From Lentibacillus sp. JNUCC-1 (GTDB taxonomy: Bacteria > Bacillota > Bacilli > Bacillales > Amphibacillaceae), in assembly GCF_009741735.1 (NCBI RefSeq), contig NZ_WHOH01000001.1, positions 1,364,001 through 1,428,000 of the forward strand: a stretch of DNA of 64,000 bases, given 5' to 3'. Within the stretch, counting starts at the first letter, position 1. Each line of letters opens with the position of its first letter. A program made the translations under genes and the position numbers. Below, in pieces: positions 2,933-21,401 of this stretch. Under the pieces are notes generated by a model. It saw only the letters and a program-made list of their open reading frames with translations. It searched no databases and was not told where the DNA came from.

Positions 2933-3727
2933 TTACCCAAGCACAGCGCGATCGTTGCCGAACGCCGCACCTTGTTTTTCCTTAATTTTATGCAGAAGGG
3001 CTTCTATCGTCAATGCTTGTTTCTCTGCGCCTTCCACTTCGAATATAATCTTCCCCTTGTCCATCATGATCAGACGGTTGCCGAGGTCAAGCGCCTGTTG
3101 CATATTGTGGGTGACCATCAGAGTCGTCAGGCCAAATTTTCCCACGACCTCTTCAGTCAAATTCGTGATCAGTTCAGCCCTGGATGGATCAAGGGCTGCT
3201 GTATGTTCGTCAAGCAGAAGAATGTTGGGCTCGGTGAACGTCACCATTAACAAGGACAAGGCCTGGCGCTCACCACCTGACAGCAGACCAACTTTAGCAT
3301 TTAGCCTGTCTTCAAGGCCGAGATTAATAGATTCGAGGTATTCACGAAACATATCTTTACGCTTTTTTGTAACGCCAAGTTTAAACCGGCGTTTTTTATT
3401 GCGGGCATAAGCCATGGCCAGGTTCTCTTCTATTGTCATGGACGGAGCAGTGCCTGCCATTGGGTCCTGAAATACCCGGCCAATGAGGCGTGACCGCTTG
3501 TATTCAGGTAAGTGCGCTACATGTTTTCCATCAACGACCACGTCCCCTACATCCGGAATCAGAGTCCCTGAGATGACGTTCATTAAAGTCGACTTCCCAG
3601 CACCATTACTGCCGATTACTGTAACGAAGTCACCTTTGTTCAACTCAAGACTTACATCATTCAATGCTTTCTTTTCGTCAGGAGTGGATTCGTTGAAGGT
3701 CATTGAGATGTTTTCCAGTTTCAGCAT
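2933..3727 (-). CDS. ABC transporter ATP-binding protein (TrpZ-like)
   Basis: The ATPase of a three-gene importer. Motifs are Walker A GSNGAGKST, signature LSGGERQAL, Walker B NILLLDEHTAAL and the H-loop VTHN. The D-loop region reads EHTAALDP where most ABC ATPases have EPT; EHTAALDP is typical of this family (COG1101). I chose the ATG at 3727 because GGAGGGAGC sits 6 bases upstream; the open frame extends 13 codons further without a ribosome binding site. The start nearly abuts the permease stop (3729), so the genes are translationally close. Streptococcal relatives import tryptophan or tyrosine, and the position behind a phenylalanine-degradation block fits aromatic amino acid uptake. The substrate is inferred only. 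Confidence 0.87.
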   Translation of the reverse strand: MLKLENISMTFNESTPDEKKALNDVSLELNKGDFVTVIGSNGAGKSTLMNVISGTLIPDVGDVVVDGKHVAHLPEYKRSRLIGRVFQDPMAGTAPSMTIEENLAMAYARNKKRRFKLGVTKKRKDMFREYLESINLGLEDRLNAKVGLLSGGERQALSLLMVTFTEPNILLLDEHTAALDPSRAELITNLTEEVVGKFGLTTLMVTHNMQQALDLGNRLIMMDKGKIIFEVEGAEKQALTIEALLHKIKEKQGAAFGNDRAVLG

Positions 3728-3728
3728 G

Positions 3729-4715
3729 TCAAGCTCCCTCCGTTTTAATGGCTTCGAGTTCTGCACGTTTTTGCAAACGGCGCTTTTTCTCTTGTCTTGC
3801 TTTCATGATCTTTGGTGTAACAAGTGCAGCAATGACCAGAATAGCCGTGATGAGTTTCATGTCCCCTGTGTCTAGGAAATCTACACGCAGAGCAAATGTG
3901 ACAACGATCCGGTAAATAATTGCCCCGCCGACAACGGCTAATGTCGCCCGAGCTATCGTCTTAATGCCAAACAGCGCCTCCCCGATAATAACCGACGCCA
4001 ACCCAATAATGATCATGCCAATCCCCATATTCACGTCGGCAAAATCACCATGCTGGGCAATCAGTCCGCCTGACAAAGCAACGAGGGCGTTGGACACTCC
4101 AATTCCTGCGATAATCAGACGATCCGTATTGGCAGAGAGACTGCGGATCATCTTTTGGTTATCTCCTGTTGCCCTAAGCGCCAGCCCCACTTCGGTTTTC
4201 AGGTAATAGTCTGTCAGCAGCTTAATACCCAGTGTTACAACCATCATGACACAAATAATGCCCCAAGTGGACGGCAAGCGATCAACGCCAATGGTTGTCA
4301 AAAAGCTGTATAAGACATTATCGATTCCAGTCTTTTCCCATACAGACCGCAATTGTTTAAAAATCGTGGATTCATTTAAGAGTGATAATGTCGGTTTTCC
4401 CATGATACGTAAGTTGATCGAATACAGGGCGATCATCATAAGGATCCCGGACAGCAGTGCATTGATCCGGCCCTTGGTGTGCAAAATACCTGTCAAACAA
4501 CCGGCTAGAAATCCAGCAAATGCTGCGAATATGCTTGCCAGGATTGGCGAAACTCCGGCCATGACTGAGATGGCGGCTACACCTGCACCGGTTACAAAGC
4601 TCCCATCTACTGTTAGATCCGGAAAATCAAGAACACGGAAGGATAAATATACCCCAAGTGCCATGATCGCATAGATGATTCCCAGTTCGATTGCATTAAA
4701 TAATGATAAGAGCAT
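3729..4715 (-). CDS. ABC transporter permease (TrpY-like, COG4120)
   Basis: A hydrophobic protein of 328 residues with about 8-9 membrane segments, opening with MLLSLFNAIELGIIYAIMALGVYLSFRV. The segment FPDLTVDGSF is typical of the permease of the COG2984/COG4120/COG1101 importers. The C-terminal tail is strongly basic (KARQEKKRRLQKRAELEA) and probably cytoplasmic. A purine-rich site (GGGGGGG) lies just before the ATG. It is the middle gene of the importer and would form the membrane channel with the ATPase at 2933 and the binding lipoprotein at 4807. Confidence 0.87.
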   Translation of the reverse strand: MLLSLFNAIELGIIYAIMALGVYLSFRVLDFPDLTVDGSFVTGAGVAAISVMAGVSPILASIFAAFAGFLAGCLTGILHTKGRINALLSGILMMIALYSINLRIMGKPTLSLLNESTIFKQLRSVWEKTGIDNVLYSFLTTIGVDRLPSTWGIICVMMVVTLGIKLLTDYYLKTEVGLALRATGDNQKMIRSLSANTDRLIIAGIGVSNALVALSGGLIAQHGDFADVNMGIGMIIIGLASVIIGEALFGIKTIARATLAVVGGAIIYRIVVTFALRVDFLDTGDMKLITAILVIAALVTPKIMKARQEKKRRLQKRAELEAIKTEGA

Positions 4716-4806
4716 CGTGTCCCCCCCGATTGGCTATGAAATGGCAATACATTTGGTTGAAGGGAAAAAGGGCTTCTTTCCCGCCTTCCTCACTTCTGGC
4801 TACCTT

Positions 4807-5802
4807 TTATTCTTCGGTTTCCACCATTTCTGCGTCATCCCAGTCATCGTTCCACTCGATACCCTGGGCTTCTGCCGCTTCTTTATTAATGAACAACTCC
4901 ATTCCGGATGGATACTCCACAGGAATGTCTTTTGTCGTTTTATCGCCTTTTAAGATCTCTGCCGCCATTTCACCTGAGCGGTAACCAATTGTATAGTAAT
5001 CAATTCCAAACGTTGCAAAGCCACCCTTGGCGAGTGAATCCGGCTCAGCCACAATCAGCGGTATCTTTTGCTCATTGGCCACACCAACTACACTGTCCAG
5101 AGCTGACACAACCGTATTGTCGGTAATAATGTAAAACACATCAACCTCACCCGCAAGAGATGTGGCAGCTTGCTGCACTTCACTTGAGTTGCCTACTGTT
5201 CGCTCTTCAAAGCTGAGGGAGTTGCCATCGGCTGCTTCTTTGATTGCGTTAATCTGAGACACGGAATTTTGCTCGCCAGCGTTATACACTAAACCGACTT
5301 TGGCACCTGAAAAATATTGATCGATAAAACCAACTGTTTTCTGGATCGCTTCCGGATGCTGGTCAACGACACCCGTAATGTTCTCACCTGGCTCATCCAT
5401 AGCCGTGACGAGATCACTTTCAACCGCATCTGTTACCGATGTGAAAATGATTGGGATATCCCCGCCTGCTTTTGCAGTTGCCGACAGCGCACCAAGCGCA
5501 CTCGGAGTTGAATTGGCAAAAATCAAATCAACGCCATCATTGACAAAATTTGAACTGATCGTAGCGACGTTGTTTTGATCATTCTGGGCACTCTGGTAAT
5601 CGTATTCCACATTAAGTTCAGCATCTTCAAGCGCTGCCTTGAAACCATCATACGCCGCATCCAAAGACGGATGTTCCAAGATCTGTGTGGCACCAACCGT
5701 GTAAGAATCATTTGAAGACCCATCAGTAGAAGCATCAGACCCACATGCAGCTGTTACCAACAACGCTAAAATTGCCATTCCCGTCACCAACCATTTTTTC
5801 AT
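4807..5802 (-). CDS. ABC transporter substrate-binding lipoprotein (TrpX-like, COG2984)
   Basis: A lipoprotein of 331 residues. A signal peptide with the lipobox VTAAC (Cys20) is followed by a Ser/Asp-rich linker and a type I periplasmic-binding fold with VGATQILEHPSLDAAYDGF near the N-terminus, typical of COG2984 proteins. It would capture the ligand outside the membrane. A separate promoter (5837-5864) lies between it and the E3 gene, so it may be expressed apart from the upstream degradative genes. An acidic C-terminal tail (WDDAEMVETEE) fits a halophile. Family members bind tryptophan, tyrosine or other small ligands; phenylalanine is my inference from context. Confidence 0.88.
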   Translation of the reverse strand: MKKWLVTGMAILALLVTAACGSDASTDGSSNDSYTVGATQILEHPSLDAAYDGFKAALEDAELNVEYDYQSAQNDQNNVATISSNFVNDGVDLIFANSTPSALGALSATAKAGGDIPIIFTSVTDAVESDLVTAMDEPGENITGVVDQHPEAIQKTVGFIDQYFSGAKVGLVYNAGEQNSVSQINAIKEAADGNSLSFEERTVGNSSEVQQAATSLAGEVDVFYIITDNTVVSALDSVVGVANEQKIPLIVAEPDSLAKGGFATFGIDYYTIGYRSGEMAAEILKGDKTTKDIPVEYPSGMELFINKEAAEAQGIEWNDDWDDAEMVETEE

Positions 5803-5836
5803 TGCCCATCCCCCACTTTTTTATAAAATTTTAAAG

Positions 5837-5864
5837 AGTATATCACACATATATGTTTAGTCAA
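5837..5864 (-). promoter_or_regulatory. Predicted sigma-A promoter of the importer operon with a palindrome in the spacer
   Basis: On the minus strand TTGACT (5859-5864) and TATACT (5837-5842) are separated by 16 bases. The spacer contains the perfect palindrome ACATATATGT, a possible operator. It reads into the substrate-binding lipoprotein gene. Confidence 0.55.
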
Positions 5865-5898: not shown

Positions 5899-7344
5899 TT
5901 AATCTTGTCTACTTGACACTTCCATACGCAGTGCAGGCATGTTGTGAATGGCATGGCCTATCAGATCCTCAGCTGCTTCTTGCAAACTTTCGCCGACGCC
6001 TGGATGAATCATCATCGGATAGATCATATCCTCTTCTTTAGCTGCCATTTCAAGCAGTTGTACGAATACAGCAGATAGTTCCGCAGCTCCGTCCCCGATC
6101 ATGTGGACCCCGAGAATGATCCCGGATTGTGAATCGGTAATGATCTTAATAAAGCCATCAGATTTGTCTGTTAGAACACTGTAGCCATTCCCGCTGAGAT
6201 TGAACCGACCTGTTCGGACCTCCAAGTGTTGTGCAATGGCTTCTCGTTCGGACGTTCCGACTGAGACGACAGACGGAATGGTTCGGGCGATGGTAGGAAC
6301 AAAAGTTAAATTGACGTCTGGATGTCCTCCTGCCGCGGCTTCAGCTGCTGATTTCCCTTCTTTGATGGCCTTTACTGCAAGTGGCGGCCCTTCAGTAATA
6401 TCTCCAATAGCATAAATTGCGTCCATCGATGTTTGCTGCATTGGATTCACTTTAACAAAGCCTTCTTGCGTCAATTCTACGCCAATTCTTTCCAAACCAA
6501 GTTCAGACGTATTCGGACACACCTCTCCGCTTACAAAAAGGTGAGTGGCTTCAATTACCTGTTCCCTCTCATTCGCTTGATTCCAGGTAATGTTCAGACC
6601 CTGATCATGTTCTGCTACCTCAGTGATCATTGCCTGTTTATGCATTTTAATTTTTTGTTTTTTAAATTGACGGGTCAGTTCCCTGTGAAGCGATTCGTCA
6701 AAAAGGAGCTCGCCCTTGTTTCCCAGCAGCAATGTCACTCTCGAGCCATAAGCAGCATAAGCGGATGCCATTTCAAGGGCCAGGTAGTCATCTCCATAAA
6801 CGACGAGATGTTCAGGCAATTCATCCAAACGATACAGATCATCCGCAAGTAAAACGCGGGGTATATTCGGTGTGATACCTGCGGGCAATCGCCGGGTGCT
6901 TCCTGTTGCAATAATCGCCTTGTTAAATGTATATGTTTGGTATTGGTGTCCATGCTCGACGCCAACCTTATTCACACCTGTGAAAATAGCCTTTCCTTGA
7001 ATCACTTCAATCTGATTCCTGTTAAGCAGTGTTTCTATGCCTTGCTTCAATTGCTTGATGACAGCATCCTTGCGTTTGAGCAATTTCTTAGGATTAACCG
7101 CAGAGGTTTCCACATCAAGTCCGAGAATGCCTGCCTTCTGAATCTGAGCATGCACGGAAGCAGCATGGGTCCATATTTTTGAAGGGATACACCCTCTATT
7201 CAGGCAAGCACCACCAAGCTCCTCGGCTTCAATCAGCGTCACTGTCATACCGAGCTGGGCGGCTCTGATCGCTGCGTTATAGCCACCCGGACCGCCGCCA
7301 ATAATGATAAGATCACGTGTCTCGCTTAATTCTCCAACGACCAT
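5899..7344 (-). CDS. lpdA: Dihydrolipoamide dehydrogenase (E3)
   Basis: The FAD enzyme that reoxidises the lipoyl groups of the E2 core. It shows GGGPGGYNAA (FAD Rossmann motif), the redox disulfide CLNRGC (Cys47 and Cys52), the YAIGDITEG FAD-binding segment, and the C-terminal IHPGVGESL with the catalytic His-Glu pair. At 481 residues it has normal length. The ATG follows the E2 stop directly (TAA then ATG), with GGAGA upstream. It is the last gene of the E1alpha-E1beta-E2-E3 set. It may also serve other 2-oxoacid dehydrogenases unless a second copy exists elsewhere. Confidence 0.92.
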   Translation of the reverse strand: MVVGELSETRDLIIIGGGPGGYNAAIRAAQLGMTVTLIEAEELGGACLNRGCIPSKIWTHAASVHAQIQKAGILGLDVETSAVNPKKLLKRKDAVIKQLKQGIETLLNRNQIEVIQGKAIFTGVNKVGVEHGHQYQTYTFNKAIIATGSTRRLPAGITPNIPRVLLADDLYRLDELPEHLVVYGDDYLALEMASAYAAYGSRVTLLLGNKGELLFDESLHRELTRQFKKQKIKMHKQAMITEVAEHDQGLNITWNQANEREQVIEATHLFVSGEVCPNTSELGLERIGVELTQEGFVKVNPMQQTSMDAIYAIGDITEGPPLAVKAIKEGKSAAEAAAGGHPDVNLTFVPTIARTIPSVVSVGTSEREAIAQHLEVRTGRFNLSGNGYSVLTDKSDGFIKIITDSQSGIILGVHMIGDGAAELSAVFVQLLEMAAKEEDMIYPMMIHPGVGESLQEAAEDLIGHAIHNMPALRMEVSSRQD

Positions 7345-8586
7345 TTATATCATCTCCAGCATCAATTTATACGGATTTTCCAGGAGGGTGGCGAAGTAAT
7401 TGGTGAAACGTACAGCTGTCGCCCCGTCCGCCACACGGTGATCAAATGATAGGGATAACGTCATGATCTGGCGGATAACAATTTCATCATTCTCGTCAAC
7501 GACAGGGGTTTTCTTTGTTTTATGAAAGGCAATCAGGGCGGTTTCCGGATAGTTGATGATTGGTGTTGCACCAGTGCTGCCGAGAGGACCGACATTACTC
7601 ATGGTAAAAGTGCTGTCCTGCATATCTTCCCGGGAAAGTTGATTGGTTGTGGCTTGATCGGTAAGACGCCTGATTTCTGCGTGGAGTTGTGTTAAGGATT
7701 TGAGGTGGGCATCTTTTACGACCGGTACAACAAGGCCATGCTCAGTATCAGTCGCAACACCGATATTATAGTGGTGATACAAAACAATTTGTTCATTTTT
7801 CTCGTCAAGTTCAGCATTGAAGATCGGGAATTCTTTCAAAGCATACACCAGCGCTTTAGCTAGAAAAGCCGGAACAGAAATGTGGATCCCATCTGTCTTA
7901 AGGCTCGTACGCAGATCTGACAGCCTGGTCATGTCAATGTCGTCAAAGTGTGTCACATGGGGAATCGTATAAAGCGATTTTGTCATGTTACGGGCGATTT
8001 GCCTGCGCATGCCCCGAAAAGGTATCGTCTCTTGCTTTTTCTCAATCTCTGGCGTTTCTGGTGCACGAAGCGTCTCCACCGTTACTGCTGTTTCAGTTTT
8101 ATGTGTCTGAGACGCCTGTTCCCCCGACGCATAGGCGATTACATCTGCTTCACTCACCCGCCCGGAAGCGTCAGACGAGGGAACCTGTTCGATATCAATG
8201 CCCCGCTCCCTGGCAATGCGTCTTGTATGAGGCGTGGCGAGCACGCGCTTAAATACACGGCCGGCTTGTGTTGGCTGAGGTGTTTGACGCATGGGCTTAT
8301 GGTCTATTTGCGGTTCTTTTTCCATTTGTGAGGGTTTAACAGCGGCATCACCGGCACTGTCAATGTACATCAGAGTTGTGCCTACTTTAACGGTTTCACC
8401 CGGTGTGACGACAATATCCGTCACGATACCTTCTGCAGGCGAAGGGAGTTCGGCGACCATCTTATCTGTTTGCACCTCCACAAGAGGCTGATCCGCCTTA
8501 ACCATGTCACCCTTTTTCACGAGATAGTGAACAATTTCTCCTTCTGTCATACCTTCCCCGATGTCGTGCAGCTTTACTTCCAGCAT
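7345..8586 (-). CDS. 2-oxoacid dehydrogenase E2 (dihydrolipoyl acyltransferase)
   Basis: The acyltransferase core that moves the acyl group from E1 to CoA. The N-terminal lipoyl domain carries Lys42 in QTDKMVAE. A Pro/Gln/Thr-rich linker leads to a peripheral-subunit-binding domain (LATPHTRRIARERGID..., about 115-150). The C-terminal catalytic domain has the active-site FDHRVADGATA. I chose the ATG at 8586 because AGGAGG lies 8 bases upstream; a GTG three codons earlier overlaps that site. If E1 takes phenylpyruvate the product is phenylacetyl-CoA. The alternative is a branched-chain oxoacid complex making isobutyryl-, isovaleryl- and 2-methylbutyryl-CoA. Confidence 0.9.
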   Translation of the reverse strand: MLEVKLHDIGEGMTEGEIVHYLVKKGDMVKADQPLVEVQTDKMVAELPSPAEGIVTDIVVTPGETVKVGTTLMYIDSAGDAAVKPSQMEKEPQIDHKPMRQTPQPTQAGRVFKRVLATPHTRRIARERGIDIEQVPSSDASGRVSEADVIAYASGEQASQTHKTETAVTVETLRAPETPEIEKKQETIPFRGMRRQIARNMTKSLYTIPHVTHFDDIDMTRLSDLRTSLKTDGIHISVPAFLAKALVYALKEFPIFNAELDEKNEQIVLYHHYNIGVATDTEHGLVVPVVKDAHLKSLTQLHAEIRRLTDQATTNQLSREDMQDSTFTMSNVGPLGSTGATPIINYPETALIAFHKTKKTPVVDENDEIVIRQIMTLSLSFDHRVADGATAVRFTNYFATLLENPYKLMLEMI

Positions 8587-8598
8587 TGTTGTCACCTC

Positions 8599-9609
8599 CT
8601 AAAAGTTAACAGTCTGTTCAATCTGTTTCAAAACACGAGGCACATTCGGCAAGTAATGTTCTTCCAGCGCAAAAAACGGCACCGGCACGTCAAAACCAGT
8701 GACCCGTTGAACAGGTGCCCGCAAATAAAGAAATGCTTCGTCATTAATAATAGATAGGATGTCATTGCCCAGTCCGCCTGTTCCTTGAGCTTCGTGCACG
8801 ATCACAGCGCGACCCGTTTTCTGTACGGAGTCACGGATCAGATCACGGTCAAGCGGATAAAGCGTTTGAACATCGATCACATCACAACTGATACCCTTTT
8901 CCGCGGCTGCGTCTGCCGCTTGTTTTGCAACTGGGACCATGGCTCCCCAGGCAATCAGGGAAATATCATCCCCTTCTGCCACCTGCCGCCCTTTGCCAAT
9001 CTCGCATGTATAAGGTGTTGTCGGCACGGCTTCTCGCTCTGAGCGGTAGCTGCGCATCGGCTCCATGAACAAGACCGGATCCGGATCATCAATCGCAGCC
9101 ATAAGAAGCCCTTTCGCTTGGTGGGGCGTCGCTGGGCACACCACTTTTATGCCGGGCATATGGGTGAACAGCGCTTCTGCACTGTCAGAATGCACTTCAG
9201 GTGCTCTGATGCCTGCACCATATGGCGCTCTGATTACCATAGGCACAGTAAACCGTCCCATCGATTTCATCCGCATCCGGGAAACATGGGTCATGATCTG
9301 GTCATAGGCCGGGTAAATAAAGCCCATAAACTGCATCTCAACGACAGGTTTAAATCCATTGACAGCAAGGCCAACAGAAGTTCCGACAATCCCTGATTCC
9401 GAAAGTGGTGTATCCACTACACGCGTCGACCCATAAGCATCATACAACCCTTCAGTCGCCCGAAAAACACCCCCATTTTTGCCAATGTCTTCTCCTAAAA
9501 GGATCACTGCTTCATCTTGATCAAGTTTGCTTTTCAGAGCGTCATTAATTGCCTGAACCATCGTCATTTGGCGAGTGGCCGGCGCCGTTTGAGTTTGCGT
9601 GTGAACCAT
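8599..9609 (-). CDS. 2-oxoacid dehydrogenase E1 beta subunit
   Basis: A beta subunit of 336 residues of a thiamine-diphosphate E1 of the branched-chain/pyruvate type. Typical segments are LGEDIGKNGGVFRATEGL near the N-terminus, DTPLSESGIVG, EMQFMGFIYPAYDQI, the RAPYGAGIRAPEVHSDS loop, and the C-terminal HEAQGTGGLG and RVTGFDVPVPF. The AAGGAGG ribosome binding site lies within the last codons of E1alpha, so the two are translationally coupled. It forms an alpha2beta2 E1 with the upstream gene, which here is interrupted. Confidence 0.92.
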   Translation of the reverse strand: MVHTQTQTAPATRQMTMVQAINDALKSKLDQDEAVILLGEDIGKNGGVFRATEGLYDAYGSTRVVDTPLSESGIVGTSVGLAVNGFKPVVEMQFMGFIYPAYDQIMTHVSRMRMKSMGRFTVPMVIRAPYGAGIRAPEVHSDSAEALFTHMPGIKVVCPATPHQAKGLLMAAIDDPDPVLFMEPMRSYRSEREAVPTTPYTCEIGKGRQVAEGDDISLIAWGAMVPVAKQAADAAAEKGISCDVIDVQTLYPLDRDLIRDSVQKTGRAVIVHEAQGTGGLGNDILSIINDEAFLYLRAPVQRVTGFDVPVPFFALEEHYLPNVPRVLKQIEQTVNF

Positions 9610-10668
9610 TTAGGATTCCTCCTTTAAATCTTCCATATAAGCAGACTTCTGCTGAGCAAGATGTGAGGGCACTGCGTTAAAAACATGGTCAAACATATCA
9701 GCAACATTGGCTTCTGTATAACTTTCCATCTCTTTCACAGCCTGTTCAACTTCCGTCTCCCGCTGCTCTTCCATATCGGCTATTTTTTCCGCATCCCAGT
9801 AGTCGTGTTTCTTCATAAAGCGTTCCAGTCTGTCGAGAGGATCGATCTTGTCGGCCCCGAGATGATCTGGCCGGTACTTTGTTGGGTCATCCGCTGTTGT
9901 ATGGGCGCCTGTTCGCCATGTGACGGCTTCAATCAAAGTGGGCCCCTCACCTTTTCGGGCAGTTTCCACAGCCTGTTTTGTGGCAAAATAAACGGCAAAA
10001 CAATCGTTGCCATCGATCCGCACACTTGGAATGTCATATGCGATCGCCTTTTGGGCAATTGTCTTACTGTTGGTCTGTTTTTCAAAAGGCACAGAAATGG
10101 CGTACCCGTTGTTTTGGTTGAACAAGACGACTGGCGTTTGGAAGACACCAGCAAAATTGAGCCCTTCATGAAAATCGCCTTCCGAGGTCGCACCATCGCC
10201 GAAGTAAGCTATGGCCACATTGTCCGTTCCTTTCATTTTTTCTGCCTAGGCAGCTCCCACAGCATGGGGGATTTGCGTAGCAATTGGGACAGCCGCTGGG
10301 AAAATACGTTTGCCCTCCGGCGGTACACATCCCTCCACCCGACCATTCCAATATAAAAACATCCGGGTCATATCCGCTCCAAACGTTAAGGTTGCACCGT
10401 GATCGCGATAGGTCGGAAACACCCAATCATCTTCACCAAGTGCAAGTGCGCTCCCAACCTGTGCAGCTTCCTGCCCTTCAAATGGCGGATATGTACCAAT
10501 CCGACCCTGCCGCTGCAGACTGATCGCTTTACGGTCGAAGGTGCGGATTCGGTACATATGATCATATAAACGATATGCCAAATCAACGTCGATCAAGGTC
10601 TCATAAGATTCATCGAGCAATGTCCCATCATCATTTATGATCTTCGATATTGGAAATTCATTCTTCAC
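9610..10668 (-). pseudogene. 2-oxoacid dehydrogenase E1 alpha subunit, interrupted by an in-frame amber codon
   Basis: The two halves lie in the same frame and are separated only by TAG at 10246-10248, in HAVGAA-stop-AEKMKGTDNVA, where relatives carry a sense codon. A single G-to-A change from TGG would explain it. The N-terminal half has TYRDHGATLTFG; the C-terminal half has the thiamine-diphosphate motif YFGDGATSEGDFHEG...NQNNGYAIS. I place the start at GTG 10668 because GGAGGGAGAGGGG precedes it. The ATG at 10686 has no ribosome binding site. Restart at the ATG at 10236 would yield a fragment lacking the first ~140 residues. Read as printed, the complex has no intact E1alpha unless the amber codon is suppressed. 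Confidence 0.85.
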
Positions 10669-10686
10669 TGGCCCCTCTCCCTCCAT

Positions 10687-12876: not shown

Positions 12877-12950
12877 GTCATCCCTCCTTGTGTTTTGGAA
12901 AAGTTGTGTGATGTGAGCGGGACTGATTGGTCGTTGTTCGGGAGAAAAGA

Positions 12951-13140
12951 CCGCCGTTCAACTGGAAATACCGCCGCTCAAGGCGCATTATCGCCGTTCA
13001 ATCGGAATTACCGCCGCTCAGGGCGAATTATCGCCGTTCAACCGGAATTACCGCCGCTCAGGGCGAATTATCGCCGTTCAACCGGAATTACCGCCGCTCA
13101 GGGCGAATTATCACCACTCAGCCGTAAATACCGCCGCTCA
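12951..13140. repeat. Tandem 20-bp units in a 40-bp alternation between paaJ and the flavoenzyme
   Basis: Nine and a half 20-bp units without indels. A constant half (TCGCCGTTCA alternating with CCGCCGCTCA) alternates with ACCGGAATTA or GGGCGAATTA. The design is the same as in the array at 1601-1840, but the sequence is different. It fills the gap between two gene sets of the long minus-strand block. Plus-strand open frames across it are artefacts of the repeat. Confidence 0.9.
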
Positions 13141-13158
13141 ACCTCTACACCAGCACTC

Positions 13159-14373: not shown

Positions 14374-15236
14374 CCCCTGCCCTGATCCGTATAATCATAC
14401 ACGCCACGCCCGGACTTCCGTCCCAGCCGTCCTGCTTTCACATACGCTTCCAGTAACGGAGCAGGCCGAAATTTATCTCCAAGGGTTTTATGCAAATACC
14501 GTAAATTGTTGAGTCTGGTATCAAGCCCCACAAGATCCCCAAGCTCCAACGGTCCCATCGGGTAATTAAGGCCCAGCTTAATGGCCTTATCGATATCCTC
14601 AGCGCTTGCGACCCCTTCCTGCAGCATATGGAAAGCCTCGTTACCGACAAGCGCACTGATCCGGCTTGTCACAAAGCCTGGAAATTCATTGACTTCTACC
14701 GTTTCTTTCCCCATCTTTTCAGCTGCCTGTTTGATCAATTGAACGGTGTCTTCAGCTGTTTCGAGCCCTTTTACGATCTCGACAAGCCGCATTTTATGCA
14801 CCGGATTGAAAAAATGCATCACCGCAAATTGCGCTGGTCTTCCTGTATAGGACGCTAGCTCGGTCGGACTGATCGTGGAAGTATTGGAAGCAAAAATGGC
14901 CTTACTTGGCGCATAACGTCCTGCTGTTTCAAGAACGTCTTGCTTCAGGTCGTGTTTTTCCGGAACTGCTTCGATGACACAATCTGTCTCAGCTACGGCA
15001 CTTTGTAGATCGGTTGAAGTGTTTAACCGGTCCAGTAGATTGGCGGCGGATGCTTCCGTCAACTTCCCCCGGTCCACCGCTTGCTCTGTTAATCTTTCAA
15101 TATGGTCACAGGCTGCACTTAATTGAGCAGTGCTGACGTCAACGAGGGTCACTCTAAAACCGCCAAGGGATGAGACATAAGCAATTCCTCGTCCCATCAC
15201 ACCCGCCCCGACAACCGTTATATCGTTGATTGTCAT
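14361..15236 (-). CDS. paaH: 3-hydroxyacyl-CoA dehydrogenase (PaaH)
   Basis: A 291-residue NAD-dependent dehydrogenase that oxidises 3-hydroxyadipyl-CoA to 3-oxoadipyl-CoA. It opens with the Rossmann motif VVGAGVMGRGIAYVSSLGG, followed by ASNTSTISPTELA, HFFNPVHKMRLVEIVKG with the catalytic His, and the C-terminal domain with NEFPGFVTSRISALVGNEAF. The last residues ([11 protein letters not shown]) follow the usual RKSGRGVYDY. The gene starts 3 bases after the aldehyde dehydrogenase stop. A role in general fatty acid oxidation cannot be excluded, but the position favours the phenylacetate pathway. Confidence 0.9.
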   Translation of the reverse strand: MTINDITVVGAGVMGRGIAYVSSLGGFRVTLVDVSTAQLSAACDHIERLTEQAVDRGKLTEASAANLLDRLNTSTDLQSAVAETDCVIEAVPEKHDLKQDVLETAGRYAPSKAIFASNTSTISPTELASYTGRPAQFAVMHFFNPVHKMRLVEIVKGLETAEDTVQLIKQAAEKMGKETVEVNEFPGFVTSRISALVGNEAFHMLQEGVASAEDIDKAIKLGLNYPMGPLELGDLVGLDTRLNNLRYLHKTLGDKFRPAPLLEAYVKAGRLGRKSGRGVYDYTDQGRGWRT

Positions 15237-15238: not shown

Positions 15239-16762
15239 TTAAACTCCAAACGGGTTGAGCGGCTTTGATCCGTAGTATGATAGAACACTCTTATCTTCCA
15301 TATATAAATCAAGCGATTCTACGGCAAGTTCCCGGCCAAACCCTGATTCTTTATAGCCGCCGAATGGGGTTCCGGGGAATGCGGAAAATGGACTGTTTAC
15401 CATAACGATACCGGCCTGAATCTGGTGGGCTACCCGTGTCGCTCTCCCCTGATTCGTCGTCCAGATAGAAGAGCCAAGTCCGTATTTCGTATCATTGGCA
15501 CGTTTAATCACGTCTTTCTCATCAGAAAAACGCTCTACAACGACGACCGGTCCAAAAATCTCCTCTTTTACGGCTTTCATATCTGGCGTCACATCAGCAA
15601 TAACTGTCGGTTCATACCAATGTCCGCCTTCAAATCCGGGCACTTCAGCTTCCTTACCTCCTGTTAAAATGGTCGCCCCGTCACGCACGGCCGACTGGAC
15701 ATACCCATCAATGACTTCAAGTTGTTCCCTGCTGATGATTGAGCCGATGTGTGTGCCTTTGTCAAACGGATCACCGAGAACAAGCTTCTTAGATTTCGCG
15801 ACAAACTGCTCAATGAATTCATCATAAATATCATCATGAACAAACATCCGTGACCGTGCTTCACAGGACTGACCGGTGTTGAAATAAATACCGAAAAGTG
15901 AACCCGCGACTGCCGCTTCCATGTCTGCATCGTCAAATACAATGTTTGGCGACTTCCCGCCAAGCTCAAGGGTAATCCGCTTCAACGTCCCGGATGCTTT
16001 CGCCATAATGTCTTTTCCTGTTGGCGTGGAACCCGTGAATGCCACTTTATCCACGGCCTCATGCTGAACAAGATAATCACCGACAACCGCTCCAGAACCT
16101 GGGACGGTATTGACAACCCCTTCCGGCACCCCAGCCTCATGACAGATTTCATTGATTAGTAGTGCCGTCACGGGGGTTAGGCTTGCAGGCTTCACAACAA
16201 CCGAGCAACCGGCCGCAATCGCGGGGGCTATTTTCCATGCTGCCATCATGACCGGATAGTTCCACGGGATGATTTGGGCACACACTCCAACTGGCTCTTT
16301 ATGGGTATAGTTGAAAAAGCCATACGGCATGTTATTGACTGTTCCGCGGTGTCCCACAATCGCACCAGCATAGAACTCAAAGTCCTCAATTGCCTGATTG
16401 ATCTGGACGGTGGCGGCCCCAACTGATTTCCCGCTGTTCAGCACTTCCATCTCAACAAGATCTTTAAAACGCTCACGCATAAGCGCTGCGATTTGATTCA
16501 TCACCCGAGAGCGTTTGCCAACAGGATATTTGCGCCATTTACCATGATCAAACGCCTGACGAGCGGCTTGGACAGCTTTTTCCGCATCGGCTTCATTCGC
16601 CTTTGCTACACGTGCAAGAACTTCACCCGTAGCTGGATTATACGTCTCGAAGGTCTCACCTGAAGCACTTTCCATCCGTTCTCCGTTAATAATCATTCCA
16701 TAATGAGATCGTTTCATGGAACCGACTTCTGTGACGATATCTTTTGCGGTTGTTTCTGACAT
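15239..16762 (-). CDS. Aldehyde dehydrogenase of the paa cluster
   Basis: An NAD(P)-dependent aldehyde dehydrogenase of 507 residues with IIPWNYPVMMAAWKIAPAI, KPASLTP, the FTGSTPTGKDI cofactor loop, catalytic Glu in TLELGGKSPNI, catalytic Cys in NTGQSCEARSR, and KEEIFGPVVVV. In proteobacteria the ring-opened semialdehyde is oxidised by the ALDH domain of the fusion protein PaaZ. Gram-positive clusters often keep a separate ALDH, and this gene probably fills that role. Phenylacetaldehyde dehydrogenase is a second possibility. I see no hydratase (MaoC) domain fused to it. The ribosome binding site GGAGGAGA precedes the ATG. Confidence 0.85.
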   Translation of the reverse strand: MSETTAKDIVTEVGSMKRSHYGMIINGERMESASGETFETYNPATGEVLARVAKANEADAEKAVQAARQAFDHGKWRKYPVGKRSRVMNQIAALMRERFKDLVEMEVLNSGKSVGAATVQINQAIEDFEFYAGAIVGHRGTVNNMPYGFFNYTHKEPVGVCAQIIPWNYPVMMAAWKIAPAIAAGCSVVVKPASLTPVTALLINEICHEAGVPEGVVNTVPGSGAVVGDYLVQHEAVDKVAFTGSTPTGKDIMAKASGTLKRITLELGGKSPNIVFDDADMEAAVAGSLFGIYFNTGQSCEARSRMFVHDDIYDEFIEQFVAKSKKLVLGDPFDKGTHIGSIISREQLEVIDGYVQSAVRDGATILTGGKEAEVPGFEGGHWYEPTVIADVTPDMKAVKEEIFGPVVVVERFSDEKDVIKRANDTKYGLGSSIWTTNQGRATRVAHQIQAGIVMVNSPFSAFPGTPFGGYKESGFGRELAVESLDLYMEDKSVLSYYGSKPLNPFGV

Positions 16763-16806: not shown

Positions 16807-17592
16807 CTATTGTCCTGTAAATTGGGCCCTGCGCTTTTCCTTGAAAGCTGATAGTCCTTCCGCATGATCTGCAGTTTTCCCGGCAATGCGCTGTGCCTGC
16901 GCTTCTTTTTCCAAAAAGGTTTCATATGTCTCATGCATGCTATCCATCATATAACGCTTCACGAGAGAAAATGCTTGAGTCGGCGCTGCAGCCAGTCGCT
17001 CTGTAAATGCCTGGACACCTTCATCCCATCCATCTGGGGAAAACGCCTGTGTGACAATCCCCAACTCATAGGCTTCTTGTCCCGACACCGGGTTGCCCAG
17101 AGTCACAATTTCAAGCGCTTTGGCATACCCGACTAAGCGAGGCAGCATGTACAAAAAGCCCGAGTCTGGAATTAAGCCAATGTTCATAAACGCACTGACG
17201 AACTTGGCATCTGTACGCATTAGGCGAAAATCTGCTGCCAGGGCCAAGCTCATCCCAGCACCTGCTGCCGTCCCATTAATTGCAGCTATAATCGGCTTAG
17301 GCGTCTCTTTCATAGCCATAAGCATCGGGTGGTAACGTTCACGTAAAACATCGGCATGATTGGTCTGCTCATCCACGCCCCCAAGATCTTCCCCGCCGCA
17401 AAAAGCACGGCCTGCACCTGTCAATACAATCACACGAACATCCGCATCTTTCCCGGCCTGTTTAAGTGTCTTAATGATCACCTGATTCATATCTGGTGTG
17501 AACGCGTTAAACGCCTCCGGACGATTCAGCGTTAGGGTTGCCACACCATTACGTGCTTCATATTTAATCGTATCTGATGTCACGTTTGCCAT
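16807..17592 (-). CDS. paaG: 1,2-epoxyphenylacetyl-CoA isomerase (PaaG)
   Basis: A crotonase-fold enzyme (261 residues) that converts the ring epoxide to the oxepin. Features are TLNRPEAFNAFTPDM, the oxyanion segment TGAGRAFCGGEDLGG, NGTAAGAGMSLALAADFRLM, and FMNIGLIPDSGFLYMLPRLVG with the Asp conserved in PaaG. This last motif distinguishes it from the neighbouring hydratase. The start codon follows the ribosome binding site AGGGGAGTG in the end of paaF, 4 bases after that stop. Confidence 0.88.
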   Translation of the reverse strand: MANVTSDTIKYEARNGVATLTLNRPEAFNAFTPDMNQVIIKTLKQAGKDADVRVIVLTGAGRAFCGGEDLGGVDEQTNHADVLRERYHPMLMAMKETPKPIIAAINGTAAGAGMSLALAADFRLMRTDAKFVSAFMNIGLIPDSGFLYMLPRLVGYAKALEIVTLGNPVSGQEAYELGIVTQAFSPDGWDEGVQAFTERLAAAPTQAFSLVKRYMMDSMHETYETFLEKEAQAQRIAGKTADHAEGLSAFKEKRRAQFTGQ

Positions 17593-17595: not shown

Positions 17596-18366
17596 TCACT
17601 CCCCTTTAAATTCTGGCTTTCGCTTCTCCTGAAAAGCCTGCATACCTTCTTTTTGATCATGGGAATCAAACAGCATATAAAAGTTTTTGCGCTCTAACAG
17701 TAGTCCATCGTCTAAATTCAGATCCTCTGCACGAAGGACGGTCTCTTTGATCAGACGGACTGAAAGGGGCGGCTGCTTTGTGAGCTGTCTGGCAAGACGT
17801 ATGGTTTCTTCGTGGAGCATTTCTTCAGCGACCATCCGATCAACCACACCGAAGTGAGCTGCTTCCTGCGCAGTCATGGTGTCTCCCAGCAAAATATACG
17901 CGAGTGCCTTGCGTCGGCCCATTGCGCGCGTGAGAAGCTGTGTGCCGCCAGCTCCAGGCATGACACCCAATTTCACTTCTGGAAAACCGAACTCAGCGGT
18001 TTCCGCAGCCATGATCAGATCACAATGCAACACCAGCTCAAACCCGCCGCCAAGCGCAAAGCCATGAACAGAGGCAATAATAGGCTTTTTGATCCGTCTT
18101 AACCTGTCCCAGTCTGCAAATGGATCAGCGCGTTCCATGGACAAAGGCGTTTCCGTCATCATTTCATCAATATCTGCTCCAGCAGCAAAAGCTCGGCCTG
18201 CTCCATTTATAACCATGACGCGTATGGCTGGATCTTTATCAAACGCCTCTAGTTGGGCAGCAATTTCTGTAATCATCTGCCGGTTTAACGCATTCAAAAC
18301 TTCCAGCCGGTTCAATGTCACTATTCCGACGTGATCAGTCACAGATACTTGTATGAATTCAGGCAT
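17596..18366 (-). CDS. paaF: Enoyl-CoA hydratase (PaaF)
   Basis: Crotonase-fold hydratase of about 256 residues. It shows GIVTLNRLEVLNALN, NGAGRAFAAGADIDEM, VHGFALGGGFELVLHCDLIMAA and FGFPEVKLGVMPGAGGTQLL with the Glu typical of hydratases. It would hydrate 2,3-dehydroadipyl-CoA. I chose the ATG at 18366 because GGTGAGG lies 6 bases upstream; the ATG at 18372 abuts that site. The start overlaps the end of the EthD-like gene by 8 bases. Paired with PaaG it follows the order usual in paa operons. Confidence 0.87.
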   Translation of the reverse strand: MPEFIQVSVTDHVGIVTLNRLEVLNALNRQMITEIAAQLEAFDKDPAIRVMVINGAGRAFAAGADIDEMMTETPLSMERADPFADWDRLRRIKKPIIASVHGFALGGGFELVLHCDLIMAAETAEFGFPEVKLGVMPGAGGTQLLTRAMGRRKALAYILLGDTMTAQEAAHFGVVDRMVAEEMLHEETIRLARQLTKQPPLSVRLIKETVLRAEDLNLDDGLLLERKNFYMLFDSHDQKEGMQAFQEKRKPEFKGE

Positions 18367-18670
18367 CCACATCCTCACCAATCATCAATGTGACCAGGTC
18401 TCCGGCGAACTGCATCACATCTTTTCCGGAAGCTTTGCCCTCATCGGTTTTCATTGCTTCCTGAAGAGCCTCATGATCATCGTAAAACATTTCACACAGC
18501 AAGTAGAACTCACTTTTTCCCATCGGTGAGCCGACGATTTTCGTAACTTTCATGTCACGCAAACCCGGAATTTTTTGTGTGAGCGGGGTATGAACATTGA
18601 AATAATGCTCGTCAAAGGCTGCTTTGTCCTCTGGTTGCTTATATAATGCAATCAATTTAACCACTTGCAT
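18359..18670 (-). CDS. EthD-family small protein
   Basis: A 103-residue ferredoxin-like-fold (dimeric alpha-beta barrel) protein of the EthD family, with KLIALYKQPEDKAAFDEHYFNVHTPLTQKIPGL and FYLLCEMFYDDHEALQEAMKT. Such proteins occur in Gram-positive phenylacetate clusters, but a defined reaction is not known to me. It sits between paaD and paaF and overlaps the latter. A possible job is handling a reactive intermediate such as the epoxide or oxepin; this is inference from position only. Confidence 0.8.
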   Translation of the reverse strand: MQVVKLIALYKQPEDKAAFDEHYFNVHTPLTQKIPGLRDMKVTKIVGSPMGKSEFYLLCEMFYDDHEALQEAMKTDEGKASGKDVMQFAGDLVTLMIGEDVDA

Positions 18671-18688
18671 CTCTCCTTTTATTGTCCA

Positions 18689-19201
18689 TTATATGGTTGA
18701 GGGGGTATCTTTAATGACTGGCTTCATCGCTTCGAATGGATTGCGGCATGCCATGCAGTAGAGAATGCTTCTGCATGCGGTCGGTCCGAAGACGTTTTCC
18801 ATTGATGTATAGTCTGAGCCGCAATAAGGACAGTCAACCGTCCACATCTCTCCAGGGTGGTAATCCTCTGGAGGAGGTGATATACCATGCTTTTTCAGCT
18901 GGCGTTTGCCTTCTTTTGTAATGGCATCTGTCGTCCAGGGCACTTCAAAAGTGAAGGCTACTGTACATGACATCACCCACCCTAGTGTTTGTACCGCCTC
19001 CCGGACATCCCGTTCGATAAATTCAAGTGCTGGGCAGCCTGCAAAGGTCGGCACCATTGTTACCTGAACATCGCTATCATTGATCGCAATATCATGAACC
19101 ATGCCAAGATCCCATACACTTACATTCGGCAGTTCTGGATCATCAACCGTCTGCACAATCTTCTGCACTTCCTGAAGTCTCAACATCTCTGACTTGATCA
19201 C
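18689..19201 (-). CDS. paaD: Phenylacetyl-CoA epoxidase subunit PaaD
   Basis: PaaD belongs to the DUF59/MIP18 family and is thought to help iron-sulfur or diiron maturation of the epoxidase. The N-terminal part reads LQEVQKIVQTVDDPELPNVSVWDLGMV, then PTFAGCPALEFIERD with the conserved Cys. The C-terminus has a zinc-ribbon-like pair (DCPYCGSDYT ... CMACRNPFEAMKP). The frame is open 65 codons further upstream through the end of paaC, so the start must be chosen. GTG 19201 has AAAGGGA at good spacing; ATG 19186 is the alternative. This gives 170 residues, the family norm. Confidence 0.88.
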   Translation of the reverse strand: MIKSEMLRLQEVQKIVQTVDDPELPNVSVWDLGMVHDIAINDSDVQVTMVPTFAGCPALEFIERDVREAVQTLGWVMSCTVAFTFEVPWTTDAITKEGKRQLKKHGISPPPEDYHPGEMWTVDCPYCGSDYTSMENVFGPTACRSILYCMACRNPFEAMKPVIKDTPSTI

Positions 19202-19214
19202 CCTTTCCCTTTCG

Positions 19215-20033
19215 TCACCAGACGGCTGTTCTGTCGCTGTTGTAAACCTCGGCAAACGTAACAAGCGCCTGATCAAGGTCCCCGGTATGTTCACCCAAAC
19301 GTCCATTGCCTTCTTCAAGTCCCCATTCACGCCCGGGGATGTCAGCAACGATCGAATGAATGGCTGCCTTCCAAGTCTTTGCCAAGTCTGTTTCACTTCC
19401 GATCAGACCATACTGTTCCATCGCTTGTTTTTCTTCGCCCAAGAGCGGCACATCCCCAATGCAGCTCCATGCCTCTTGCATCCGTTCGTGAATACGGTGC
19501 TTGGCCTCATCTGTTGCCCCTTGCAATTGCCGCAGCCACAAGGACCAGTGTGCCAAATGGTAGCTTTGTTCAAGCAGTACTTTTTCAGCGGCAAGGGCAA
19601 GCGGTTTATAAGTCGAACGTGCAACCGCTTCCAATTTTGCTTTTTTAAACGTTTCATATAAAACATTGCGAACAACTGCCAGCGCCCAGTCATAATAAGG
19701 TTCTTCCCAGTACGCCCCGTCACCGTTTTGCCGCTCAAAGTAAACCGCATTGCGCCGCTCTCCCGGCAAACGTTCATGGGCGATCACATCAGCATCTCCT
19801 TCTCCAAGCCCTTCAAGGAGGGTGTAATACATGACAGCATGACCCATCGTGTTTTGAGTGATGGAAGAATACGCAACATCTTCTTCAATATGCGGTGCGA
19901 GTCCAAGCCATTCCGAACCTCGAAATGCCATGATAAAGTCATCATCTGCCAATTGATACAGCAATTCTTTGAGTGCTTTTGAATAAGTAGGATTCGCCTG
20001 TGCCTCGCGGGCGGTTGTCACCAGGTGCATCAT
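19215..20033 (-). CDS. paaC: Phenylacetyl-CoA epoxidase subunit PaaC
   Basis: The 272-residue ferritin-like structural subunit that pairs with PaaA in the ring 1,2-epoxidase. Typical segments are LLYQLADDDFIMAFRGSEWLGLAPHIEEDVA, SSITQNTMGHAVMYYTLLE and LEQSYHLAHWSLWLRQLQ. PaaC keeps the four-helix fold but has no full diiron site. Its start overlaps the paaB stop by 4 bases (ATGA), indicating coupled translation. Confidence 0.9.
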   Translation of the reverse strand: MMHLVTTAREAQANPTYSKALKELLYQLADDDFIMAFRGSEWLGLAPHIEEDVAYSSITQNTMGHAVMYYTLLEGLGEGDADVIAHERLPGERRNAVYFERQNGDGAYWEEPYYDWALAVVRNVLYETFKKAKLEAVARSTYKPLALAAEKVLLEQSYHLAHWSLWLRQLQGATDEAKHRIHERMQEAWSCIGDVPLLGEEKQAMEQYGLIGSETDLAKTWKAAIHSIVADIPGREWGLEEGNGRLGEHTGDLDQALVTFAEVYNSDRTAVW

Positions 20034-20383
20034 GATTTTTTCACCTCTTTCCAGGACATGATCTCTTTTTCATCCAACATGCCCTGCTCTTTCTCCCGCC
20101 ACTTCTTGCGCAAATAGCCATACCCTTTTGTCGTTCGGTAGTCTTTATTGTCCAACCGTTGCGTCAGCTGTTGACGTTCTGATGCATTCAATGCTCTGAC
20201 CGCTTCACGCGGAACCACCCAAAGATCAACAACTTCCTGGCGTCTCATAAAATTCTCCTGAGCCATTAATAGCGCCATTTCTTCATTCGGCGCGAGCAAG
20301 CTAAATTGATGCTGGAGCGGTGTTTTGTGATTACGCTTGCTGAACACTTCATATTCCTTATAAAACTGCCCTTCTTCACGCAC
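20030..20383 (-). CDS. paaB: Phenylacetyl-CoA epoxidase subunit PaaB
   Basis: A small bridging subunit that holds the PaaA/PaaC catalytic pairs together. It shows YEVFSKRNHKTPLQHQFSLL, APNEEMALLMAQENFMRRQEVVDLWVVPR and a basic C-terminus. The open frame runs 28 codons upstream into paaA. I chose GTG 20383 because GGGGGG sits 7 bases before it, giving 117 residues, close to the family length. It lies between paaA and paaC with minimal gaps. Confidence 0.87.
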   Translation of the reverse strand: MREEGQFYKEYEVFSKRNHKTPLQHQFSLLAPNEEMALLMAQENFMRRQEVVDLWVVPREAVRALNASERQQLTQRLDNKDYRTTKGYGYLRKKWREKEQGMLDEKEIMSWKEVKKS

Positions 20384-20408
20384 ACGCCATCCCCCCTTCA
20401 GTTCTGAA

Positions 20409-21401
20409 TTAATGCACAGCCTCCGCAGCCAAAGCCTGACGTACCCAACGGTTGTTTTCATAAGCAATGGTTCGGAGTTTCAGACGTGCCTTGGAACGTG
20501 GTCCATTATTGCCGATGATCTGTTTGAAAAGTGTCCAGTCGGGTTGTTTGTAAAGCCACTTTTCTTTTTCAGTGTCATAATGAATCGTGTCGTCCGGCAC
20601 TGTCAGACCGAGGGCGAATACACGTGGCATATATTTATCAAGAAAAGCTTGCCGCAGTTCTTCGTTGGAGCTTTTCCGAATGCGGTATTTGATCATGATG
20701 TCCTGTTTAGATGAACCGGTCGTTTCCGCAGATGCCGGGCCAAAAAACATGAGTAAGGCTTCCCACCAGCGATTAAGCGAATCTTGAAGAATGGCCCGTT
20801 GTTCATCTGTACCTTCTGCCAGAGCCATGATAATGGATTCACCGTGCTGGGCGTGGAAAACCTCCTCCTGGCAAATGCGCTGCAAGGCCCGCTGATACGG
20901 TCCATATGATGCATCAAGCATATTGGTCTGGGAAATAATGGCTGCCCCGTCAACCAGCCAGCCCACCATGCCTGCATCTGCCCAAGTTTTCGTCGGCATA
21001 TGAAACACATTGTGGAACTTCAGTCTGCCGCCAAGCAAATCTTCTATGAGATCACCGCGTGTCTTGCCATATGGTGCCATAAGATCTTCAGCCACTCTGA
21101 GCAGAAGCTGGCCATGACCCATTTCGTCCTGTACTTTAGCCATAATCCCAAGTTTTCGCCTGAGTGTCGGTGCTTTTGGAACCCATTCTTTCTCAGGAAG
21201 GGCACCCATAATTTCACTCATGCCATGCATTGAAATTAATTTAATCAATGCCTTGCGGTAATCATCGGGCATCCAATCATCCGCTTCGATTTTATCCCCC
21301 GCTTCAATCCGGTTCATAAACGCTTCGTATTTTGCTTCATCTCCTTCAGCAAACACACGGCCAGGTGAATCGCCATCCTCCACGTAATTATACACAGCCA
21401 C
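20409..21401 (-). CDS. paaA: Phenylacetyl-CoA epoxidase catalytic subunit PaaA
   Basis: The 330-residue diiron oxygenase subunit that forms the 1,2-epoxide of phenylacetyl-CoA. Iron-ligand motifs are visible as KVQDEMGHGQ and QEEVFHAQHG (ExxH patterns). The N-terminus FMNRIEAGDKIEADDWMPDDYRKAL is typical. It is the first gene of the long minus-strand operon. Upstream (21402-21480) lie a TTGACA element and an inverted repeat, and paaX is divergent beyond. No PaaE-type reductase gene follows the oxygenase subunits, so electrons must come from elsewhere. Confidence 0.93.
   Translation of the reverse strand: MAVYNYVEDGDSPGRVFAEGDEAKYEAFMNRIEAGDKIEADDWMPDDYRKALIKLISMHGMSEIMGALPEKEWVPKAPTLRRKLGIMAKVQDEMGHGQLLLRVAEDLMAPYGKTRGDLIEDLLGGRLKFHNVFHMPTKTWADAGMVGWLVDGAAIISQTNMLDASYGPYQRALQRICQEEVFHAQHGESIIMALAEGTDEQRAILQDSLNRWWEALLMFFGPASAETTGSSKQDIMIKYRIRKSSNEELRQAFLDKYMPRVFALGLTVPDDTIHYDTEKEKWLYKQPDWTLFKQIIGNNGPRSKARLKLRTIAYENNRWVRQALAAEAVH

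Follow-up and report, generated by a model that had tools for sequence, protein, structure and literature searches.

A paa-linked 2-oxoacid dehydrogenase complex in Lentibacillus and other Bacilli, predicted to convert phenylpyruvate to phenylacetyl-CoA

How could phenylalanine reach the Paa pathway in a bacterium in which the phenylacetate-CoA ligase PaaK is not found? The question is raised by a 64,000-nucleotide stretch of contig 1 of Lentibacillus sp. JNUCC-1 (hereafter the window), part of a genome of 3.69 Mb in 3 contigs that is 96.6% complete. Here paa genes lie beside a predicted phenylalanine dehydrogenase (PheDH), genes for the E1, E2 and E3 components of a 2-oxoacid dehydrogenase complex, and an importer. 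In the available passages of a 2022 review, the Paa pathway starts at PaaK (PMC9493321). The lower part of that pathway is shared with the block in the window, but the block would enter it at the coenzyme A (CoA) ester, and PaaK is not found.

The gene block and its proposed route

Read along the minus strand from 21401 to 2933, the block runs through paaA, paaB, paaC, paaD, an EthD-like gene, paaF, paaG, an aldehyde dehydrogenase (ALDH) gene, paaH, paaJ, a nitronate monooxygenase (NMO)-like gene and an amino-acid dehydrogenase gene, followed at the downstream end by the two pieces of E1-alpha, then by E1-beta, E2, E3 and a TrpX/Y/Z-like importer. It extends to 23544 through paaX, on the opposite strand, and PaaY-like and PaaI-like genes behind paaX (Table 1). 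A first-pass annotation had described importer, PheDH, E1-E2-E3 and paaABCD-FG-ALDH-HJ as one run on a single strand, and every part of that run was located, but an in-frame TAG interrupts the E1-alpha gene.

In the route that we propose, the importer would bring in phenylalanine, the dehydrogenase would deaminate it to phenylpyruvate, and E1-alpha/beta, E2 and E3 would oxidatively decarboxylate phenylpyruvate with CoA and NAD to phenylacetyl-CoA, to be degraded by PaaABCD and then by the FG-ALDH-HJ enzymes. In other bacteria PaaX binds phenylacetyl-CoA, and here it would sense the product. The route contains no ATP-using ligase, so a cell starting from the amino acid could do without PaaK. 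Gene content, E1 clade, linkage and the failure to find PaaK were observed directly, while every reaction and the substrate are inferred. For the family, as distinct from this strain, we consider it likely that such a block is a phenylalanine catabolic unit with a dedicated aryl-2-oxoacid dehydrogenase.

PaaK, noted earlier as absent from the window, was not found in the rest of the genome either, the best profile match to TIGR02155 scoring 18.9 bits against a cut-off of 646. The genome encodes 10 AMP-binding proteins. It also has its own pyruvate dehydrogenase (PDH; C1:61785), a second PDH-like set and, as an answer to the suggestion that a separate branched-chain operon be sought, a bkd operon with its own leucine dehydrogenase (LeuDH) on contig 3 (C3:1180834 onward), whose E1-alpha is frame-broken in this assembly. 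Both outcomes, no PaaK found and a separate bkd operon, favour the first-pass interpretation. The bkd operon resembles the block in joining an amino-acid dehydrogenase to E1-E2-E3, but its E1 belongs to another clade and it is a separate copy. With PDH and bkd operons elsewhere, the E1 beside paa is spare, and this third complex probably serves a different substrate.

The block's dehydrogenase had been called phenylalanine type, and its residues agree. At two columns that separate PheDH from LeuDH, Gly and Leu occur in all 82 rows, where the genome's own LeuDH has Ala and Val. These columns come from work on a Lysinibacillus PheDH and are taken to decide specificity; by these two residues the window enzyme is predicted to be phenylalanine-type and the genome's own LeuDH leucine-type. 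The same PheDH-E1-E2-E3 block is present in Bacillus badius, whose PheDH, a classic enzyme, is 68% identical.

Linkage of the complex to paa genes in relatives

One-per-species genome records scanned with the window E1-beta yielded 80 loci with E1-beta 64-85% identical. Genes were counted in fetched flanks of up to 10 kb, using identity thresholds set for this analysis: PheDH was present in 70 loci, E2 in 70 and E3 in 53; paa genes occurred in 51 loci, PaaX in 34 and an FlK-type thioesterase in 48. A paa, PaaX or tyrosine-degradation gene was nearby in 66 of the 80. An amino-acid transporter was found in 72, of TrpX/Y type in 53, APC type in 11 and SNF type in 8 (types were checked with Pfam in one SNF and one APC example). 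That the transporter varies among three types around a constant dehydrogenase-complex core suggests that the unit is fed by an amino acid.

All 50 carriers tested had paaA above cut-off, against 145 of 398 genomes sampled evenly across the class. These carriers represent 50 of the 80 loci, chosen so as to exclude loci from the window's own family, most fragmentary ones, repeat loci from a genome already counted and close kin of those retained; some also belong to the class sample, and the class-sample scans scored no more than the top four or five candidates per genome. In 51 of the 145 paaA genomes of the class sample, E1-beta lay no more than 30 kb from paaA. The linkage table drew on 93 of the 120 genomes with an E1-beta match (an uneven choice), and entering the remainder gave no further linkage.

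Within the window's family, 29 genomes had a paaA match, and 28 were left after one with a weak match (G137) was dropped; in another, G101, a contig end truncates the cluster. In 15 of the 28 paaA loci, window included, the E1 pair lies next to paa. The arrangement of E1 pair, PheDH and paa is not chance. PaaK scores split the 29 genomes into 13 with at least 590 bits and 16, G137 among them, with nothing above 30 bits. Among the 15 genomes with E1 beside paa, window included, 13 are without PaaK and 2 have it (the PaaK of G058 is in two pieces). Where no E1 pair was visible, PaaK is present in 11 of 13 genomes, the others being G101 and G110. Beyond the family, PaaK was not found in 21 of the 50 carriers (18 with no match and 3 with only distant paralogues of 114-191 bits), and PheDH, E2 and E3 were all in the locus in each of these 21. 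Filobacillus (F. milosensis) and Alkalibacillus are examples of relatives in which PaaK was not found.

More distant members showed the same partners. In 20 of them E1-beta was 57-62% and E1-alpha 51-62% identical to the window proteins; 15 lay within 30 kb of paaA and 5 did not, and in all five of the latter a PheDH-like gene adjoins E1-alpha. The operon-like order E1-alpha, E1-beta, E2, TetR, paaABCD occurs in three genomes of other families (G315, G480 and G523), and the same order without E2 in a fourth (G418). The TetR domain was confirmed in G315 and G418, and the G480 and G523 proteins look alike; by position before paaABCD, this gene may be the counterpart of PaaR. These distant loci are separate arrangements of the same partners.

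The comparative case for an aryl-2-oxoacid dehydrogenase that would feed the Paa pathway is strong. The proposed direct conversion of phenylpyruvate to phenylacetyl-CoA keeps its genomic side, a complex linked to paa across Bacilli, while the substrate itself is a prediction from sequence. If the prediction holds, a misnamed E1 family would be the point at which many Bacillaceae and Caryophanaceae channel phenylalanine into an aerobic pathway for aromatic compounds, the CoA ester that starts Paa would be made straight from the amino acid, and the ATP spent by PaaK would be saved. Bacillus phenylalanine dehydrogenases, which are used industrially, would gain a physiological role, and E1 would offer a testable specificity residue.

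The E1 clade, contrary evidence and alternative substrates

The E1 of the complex groups with neither PDH nor branched-chain (BKD) E1. In the E1-beta tree, 95 cluster rows fall on one side of a branch of length 1.24 with support 100/99, and the genome's own PDH, second PDH-like and BKD proteins fall outside, as do two solved references, Bst PDH and the Thermus branched-chain 2-oxoacid dehydrogenase (Tt BCKDH). Counting the window, the cluster is represented in the alignments by 90 rows of E1-alpha and 95 of E1-beta; shorter copies and those with frame breaks, among them the genome's own bkd E1-alpha, were dropped. At the E1-alpha column of Tt Phe66 and Bst Phe74, every one of the 90 cluster rows and the 20 distant rows has Thr. 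This column holds Phe in Tt BCKDH, Bst PDH and the genome's own PDH, and Asn in the second PDH-like protein. The smaller residue would fit a bulkier substrate. The available passages of a study of PDH E1 (PMC2663715) describe a contact through His128-beta, nested with Phe82-beta and Phe85-beta, and the catalytic role of this His; a Phe at the Bst Phe74 position is unmentioned in those passages. His128-beta is retained in 95 of 95 cluster E1-beta rows, window included, and Phe82-beta and Phe85-beta are likewise kept in all 95. In the tree, E1-beta proteins from records labelled Pseudomonas sp. ISL-84 (L112) and Chryseobacterium sp. ISL-80 (L134) fall among Cytobacillus, and these records look mislabelled or contaminated.

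Several observations weigh against a dedicated phenylpyruvate complex that replaces PaaK. Among the 15 E1-bearing family loci, E2 is present in only 3 and E3 in 2 (both Lentibacillus), and 8 are without PheDH in the cluster. A mapping fault was considered for the missing E2 and E3 and rejected: the locus coordinates leave no room beside the E1 pair, so most of the family would have to use E2 and E3 from elsewhere. In the class sample, PaaK is kept by 126 of the 145 paaA genomes (19 are without it), including 40 of the 51 with linked E1. Of the 51 linked genomes 11 are without PaaK, compared with 8 of the 94 that do not show the linkage (Fisher p 0.038, with no correction for kinship). The E1 alignments contain nine genomes twice and many near kin. 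The pocket position of the Thr is also our assumption, as we take Phe66 of the Thermus enzyme to border the side-chain pocket. Three further points, an interrupted E1-alpha in this strain and the closest matches of E1 and of the dehydrogenase, are given below.

Strict loss of PaaK wherever the complex occurs was rejected on the basis of the class sample and of G110, which has no PaaK and no E1 in the fetched stretches. Since most paaA genomes of the class sample keep PaaK, the direct route would usually run beside it, and the eight unlinked genomes without PaaK suggest that the complex may permit the loss but does not dictate it. The complex is strongly linked to paa; outside the window's family, however, it is only weakly tied to the loss of PaaK, which can also come about in other ways.

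The window strain poses a difficulty of its own: its E1-alpha is not one open frame. The TAG at 10246-10248 cuts the gene into 10246-10686 and 9610-10236, where the relatives' copies are intact. In 94 aligned rows, including the window and four references, the residue at this position is W in 51 rows, M in 17, F in 12, L in 6, Y in 5 and I in 2. Over its full length the frame can still be aligned with the Lentibacillus saliphilus gene, at 80% identity, so the TAG would be recent, a sequencing error or read through. The thiamine diphosphate motif (GDG ... NN) is present in the C-terminal part, as GDGATSEGD and NQNNGYAIS. This genome also has frame breaks in its bkd E1-alpha and in the second of its PheDH-like genes, making residual assembly errors possible. 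Because the gene is broken, activity of the complex in this strain is uncertain. The direct route is well supported as a prediction, and more firmly for the family than for the window strain.

An alternative that would widen the phenylalanine reading is a general aromatic 2-oxoacid dehydrogenase serving tyrosine as much as phenylalanine, in which 4-hydroxyphenylpyruvate would become 4-hydroxyphenylacetyl-CoA and a thioesterase would free 4-hydroxyphenylacetate for the Hpa pathway. Tyrosine-degradation genes lie near 33 of the 80 loci (HPPD/HmgA in 17, HpaB/HpaF in 16), and the FlK-type thioesterase gene is present in 31 of these 33 against 17 of the other 47, which together suggest that the complex takes 4-hydroxyphenylpyruvate too. 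In the window genome, a frameshifted second PheDH-like gene on contig 3 is next to genes that look Hpa-type by eye. Set against this, the window cluster showed neither an FlK-type nor a tyrosine gene, the co-occurrence of the two in relatives follows genera and carries no kinship correction, and HPPD beside the complex gives tyrosine a route without it. On balance we regard the tyrosine role as plausible, though somewhat short of an even chance. The same guarded standing applies to a fuller proposal: that these proteins form a distinct 2-oxoacid dehydrogenase family of Bacilli, marked by the Phe-to-Thr change in E1-alpha, specialised for aromatic 2-oxoacids and misnamed in databases as pyruvate or branched-chain dehydrogenases. 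Such a family may have two exits, phenylpyruvate leaving as phenylacetyl-CoA for Paa and 4-hydroxyphenylpyruvate leaving, with the FlK-type thioesterase, as 4-hydroxyphenylacetate for Hpa, and it may have given licence for repeated PaaK loss. Database entries for the E1 proteins are named alpha-ketoacid, pyruvate or 2-oxoisovalerate dehydrogenase. The FlK-type gene, of the fluoroacetyl-CoA thioesterase family, lies just before PheDH in many relatives (for example L061:7313-7720, L071:7286-7711 and L122:7270-7659), and was not found in the Lentibacillus saliphilus locus.

Identities outside the aromatic 2-oxoacids were also weighed. The block could hold another branched-chain oxoacid dehydrogenase, paired with an amino-acid dehydrogenase of leucine type, its linkage to paa being incidental. 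The E1-beta residue at the Bst-88 column is a BCKDH-like Pro where the genome's own PDHs have Glu, the bkd E1-alpha is frame-broken, and the full-length amino-acid dehydrogenase scores 271-351 bits with solved leucine dehydrogenases and about 160 with solved phenylalanine dehydrogenases. However, a bkd operon with LeuDH exists separately in the genome, BKD rows fall outside the E1-beta clade, and both the uniform Gly/Leu signature and the presence of paaA in every carrier tested count against this identity, which is very unlikely. Reading the importer and a ScyB match as signs of an indolepyruvate route for tryptophan appears even less credible: the matches to NF041285 and NF035922 are both under cut-off, most loci lie near paa, PaaX or tyrosine-degradation genes, and APC or SNF carriers replace the TrpX/Y importer in other lineages. 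No tryptophan-degradation gene was labelled, though most unlabelled open reading frames in the locus maps were left unannotated. The least probable identity is a spare pyruvate dehydrogenase, the name that the NCBI model would give. An intact relative's E1-alpha does pass the pyruvate-dehydrogenase equivalog TIGR03181, with 462 bits against a cut-off of 411, and the solved structures nearest to E1 are PDH E1; yet the genome already encodes a PDH and a second PDH-like set, and the complex differs in E1 clade and in the Phe-to-Thr position. All three identities were rejected.

Precedents and other features of the window

The direct step had been presented as unusual, but Streptomyces, Phaeobacter and Aromatoleum already provide described or suggested cases of it. 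Phaeobacter belongs to another phylum, and IorAB, the Aromatoleum enzyme, is of an unrelated type. The comparisons that follow are drawn from available passages of each source. PglB/PglC of Streptomyces pristinaespiralis, from the phenylglycine pathway of pristinamycin, was suggested to convert phenylpyruvate to phenylacetyl-CoA (PMC7089894). Like the complex it has PDH-like E1 alpha and beta subunits, and its operon also includes a thioesterase gene; unlike the complex it is biosynthetic and part of an antibiotic operon, and paaABCDE there competes for the product (PMC7089894; likened by description). Phaeobacter inhibens, according to a review, takes phenylalanine through phenylpyruvate to phenylacetyl-CoA without phenylacetate, skipping the free acid as in the route proposed here, although it was studied for tropodithietic acid and the enzyme is unnamed in those passages (PMC7497051). 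In Aromatoleum aromaticum, the indolepyruvate:ferredoxin oxidoreductase IorAB converts phenylpyruvate directly to phenylacetyl-CoA, but it is anaerobic and ferredoxin-linked (PMC9765128). Among the open-licence PMC papers listed by the searches made, no title or abstract opening described such a catabolic complex or cluster in Bacilli. The proposed chemistry has precedents in other bacteria.

Table 1. Features of the block and its surroundings, with positions in the window
Feature	Position	Strand	Evidence
ATP-binding importer subunit, TrpZ-like	2933..3766	-	ABC ATPase matches shown all under cut-off; adjoins TrpX/Y in relatives
Importer permease, TrpY-like	3729..4715	-	PF02653
Substrate-binding protein, TrpX-like	4807..5802	-	NF041285 TrpX 241.5 bits, under cut-off 390; PF04392
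E3 dihydrolipoyl dehydrogenase	5899..7344	-	TIGR01350 395.7 bits, just below cut-off 408.8; redox motif GGxCxxxxC (GGACLNRGC)
E2 dihydrolipoyl acyltransferase	7345..8595	-	PF00364 lipoyl, PF02817 E3-binding, PF00198 catalytic; one DK lipoyl site; HxxxDG
E1-beta, proposed aryl-2-oxoacid dehydrogenase	8599..9609	-	own clade, support 100/99; active-site His retained
E1-alpha C-terminal part, after in-frame TAG	9610..10236	-	GDGATSEGD and NQNNGYAIS
In-frame TAG dividing E1-alpha	10246..10248	-	
E1-alpha N-terminal part	10246..10686	-	clade-specific Thr is its residue 65
Phenylalanine dehydrogenase, Bacillus type (predicted)	10687..11838	-	Gly and Leu at two specificity columns, 82/82 rows
Nitronate monooxygenase/FabK-like flavoprotein	11893..12876	-	PF03060; present in 57/80 loci
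PaaJ-like thiolase	13159..14373	-	NF006551 594.9 bits, below cut-off 605
PaaH-like 3-hydroxyacyl-CoA dehydrogenase	14361..15236	-	NF006722 477.5 bits, above cut-off 429
Aldehyde dehydrogenase	15239..16762	-	25 best family matches all under cut-off
PaaG-like isomerase	16807..17592	-	TIGR02280 236.5 bits, below cut-off 345
PaaF-like hydratase	17596..18381	-	NF007239 269.2 bits, below cut-off 371
EthD-family small protein	18359..18670	-	TIGR02118 above cut-off; PF07110
PaaD	18689..19396	-	TIGR02159 188 bits, cut-off 108
PaaC	19215..20033	-	TIGR02158 235.6 bits, cut-off 133
PaaB	20030..20467	-	TIGR02157 116.8 bits, cut-off 85
PaaA	20409..21401	-	TIGR02156 465.7 bits, cut-off 280
PaaX repressor	21603..22523	+	TIGR02277 355 bits, cut-off 264.6; divergent from paaA
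PaaY-like hexapeptide protein	22560..23090	-	TIGR02287 and NF050158 both under cut-off; nearer gamma carbonic anhydrase model
Hotdog thioesterase, PaaI-like	23113..23544	-	TIGR00369 above cut-off, TIGR02286 below

PaaA, PaaB, PaaC and PaaD all pass their NCBIfam cut-offs, and the best matches shown for PaaF, PaaG and PaaJ fall short of theirs. Judging from its position, the aldehyde dehydrogenase probably performs the ALDH half of PaaZ, and the TrpX-like protein probably binds aromatic amino acids. Neither the PaaE reductase nor the oxepin-CoA hydrolase (the PaaZ hydrolase) was among the annotated genes of the block, the remaining genome not having been searched for either. The NMO/FabK-like flavoprotein might relate to electron supply.

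Between paaJ and the NMO-like gene, 13 of the 15 E1-bearing family loci have an extra crotonase gene. At that place the window has a tandem repeat (12950-13143) with a 40-base unit in 4.7 copies and 91% matches, also readable as 20-base units. No exact inverted repeats with 7-base arms were found in the paaA-paaX and paaJ-NMO gaps. A consensus promoter scan gave 18 sites against a shuffle mean of 23.3 and a terminator scan 17 against 18.2, with no excess in either.

Elsewhere in the genome, the frameshifted second PheDH-like gene on contig 3 (L019:3846-7470) lies between flavin-reductase-like and FAH/CHMI-type genes identified by eye, suggesting a tyrosine or 4-hydroxyphenylacetate cluster. 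Contig 2 (L017, 25.6 kb) holds broken near-copies of the E1 genes of locus L016 beside a transposase-like gene, again by eye, and may be misassembled or duplicated. A reverse transcriptase gene (PF00078), possibly that of a group II intron, is located at 30042-31400 of the window.

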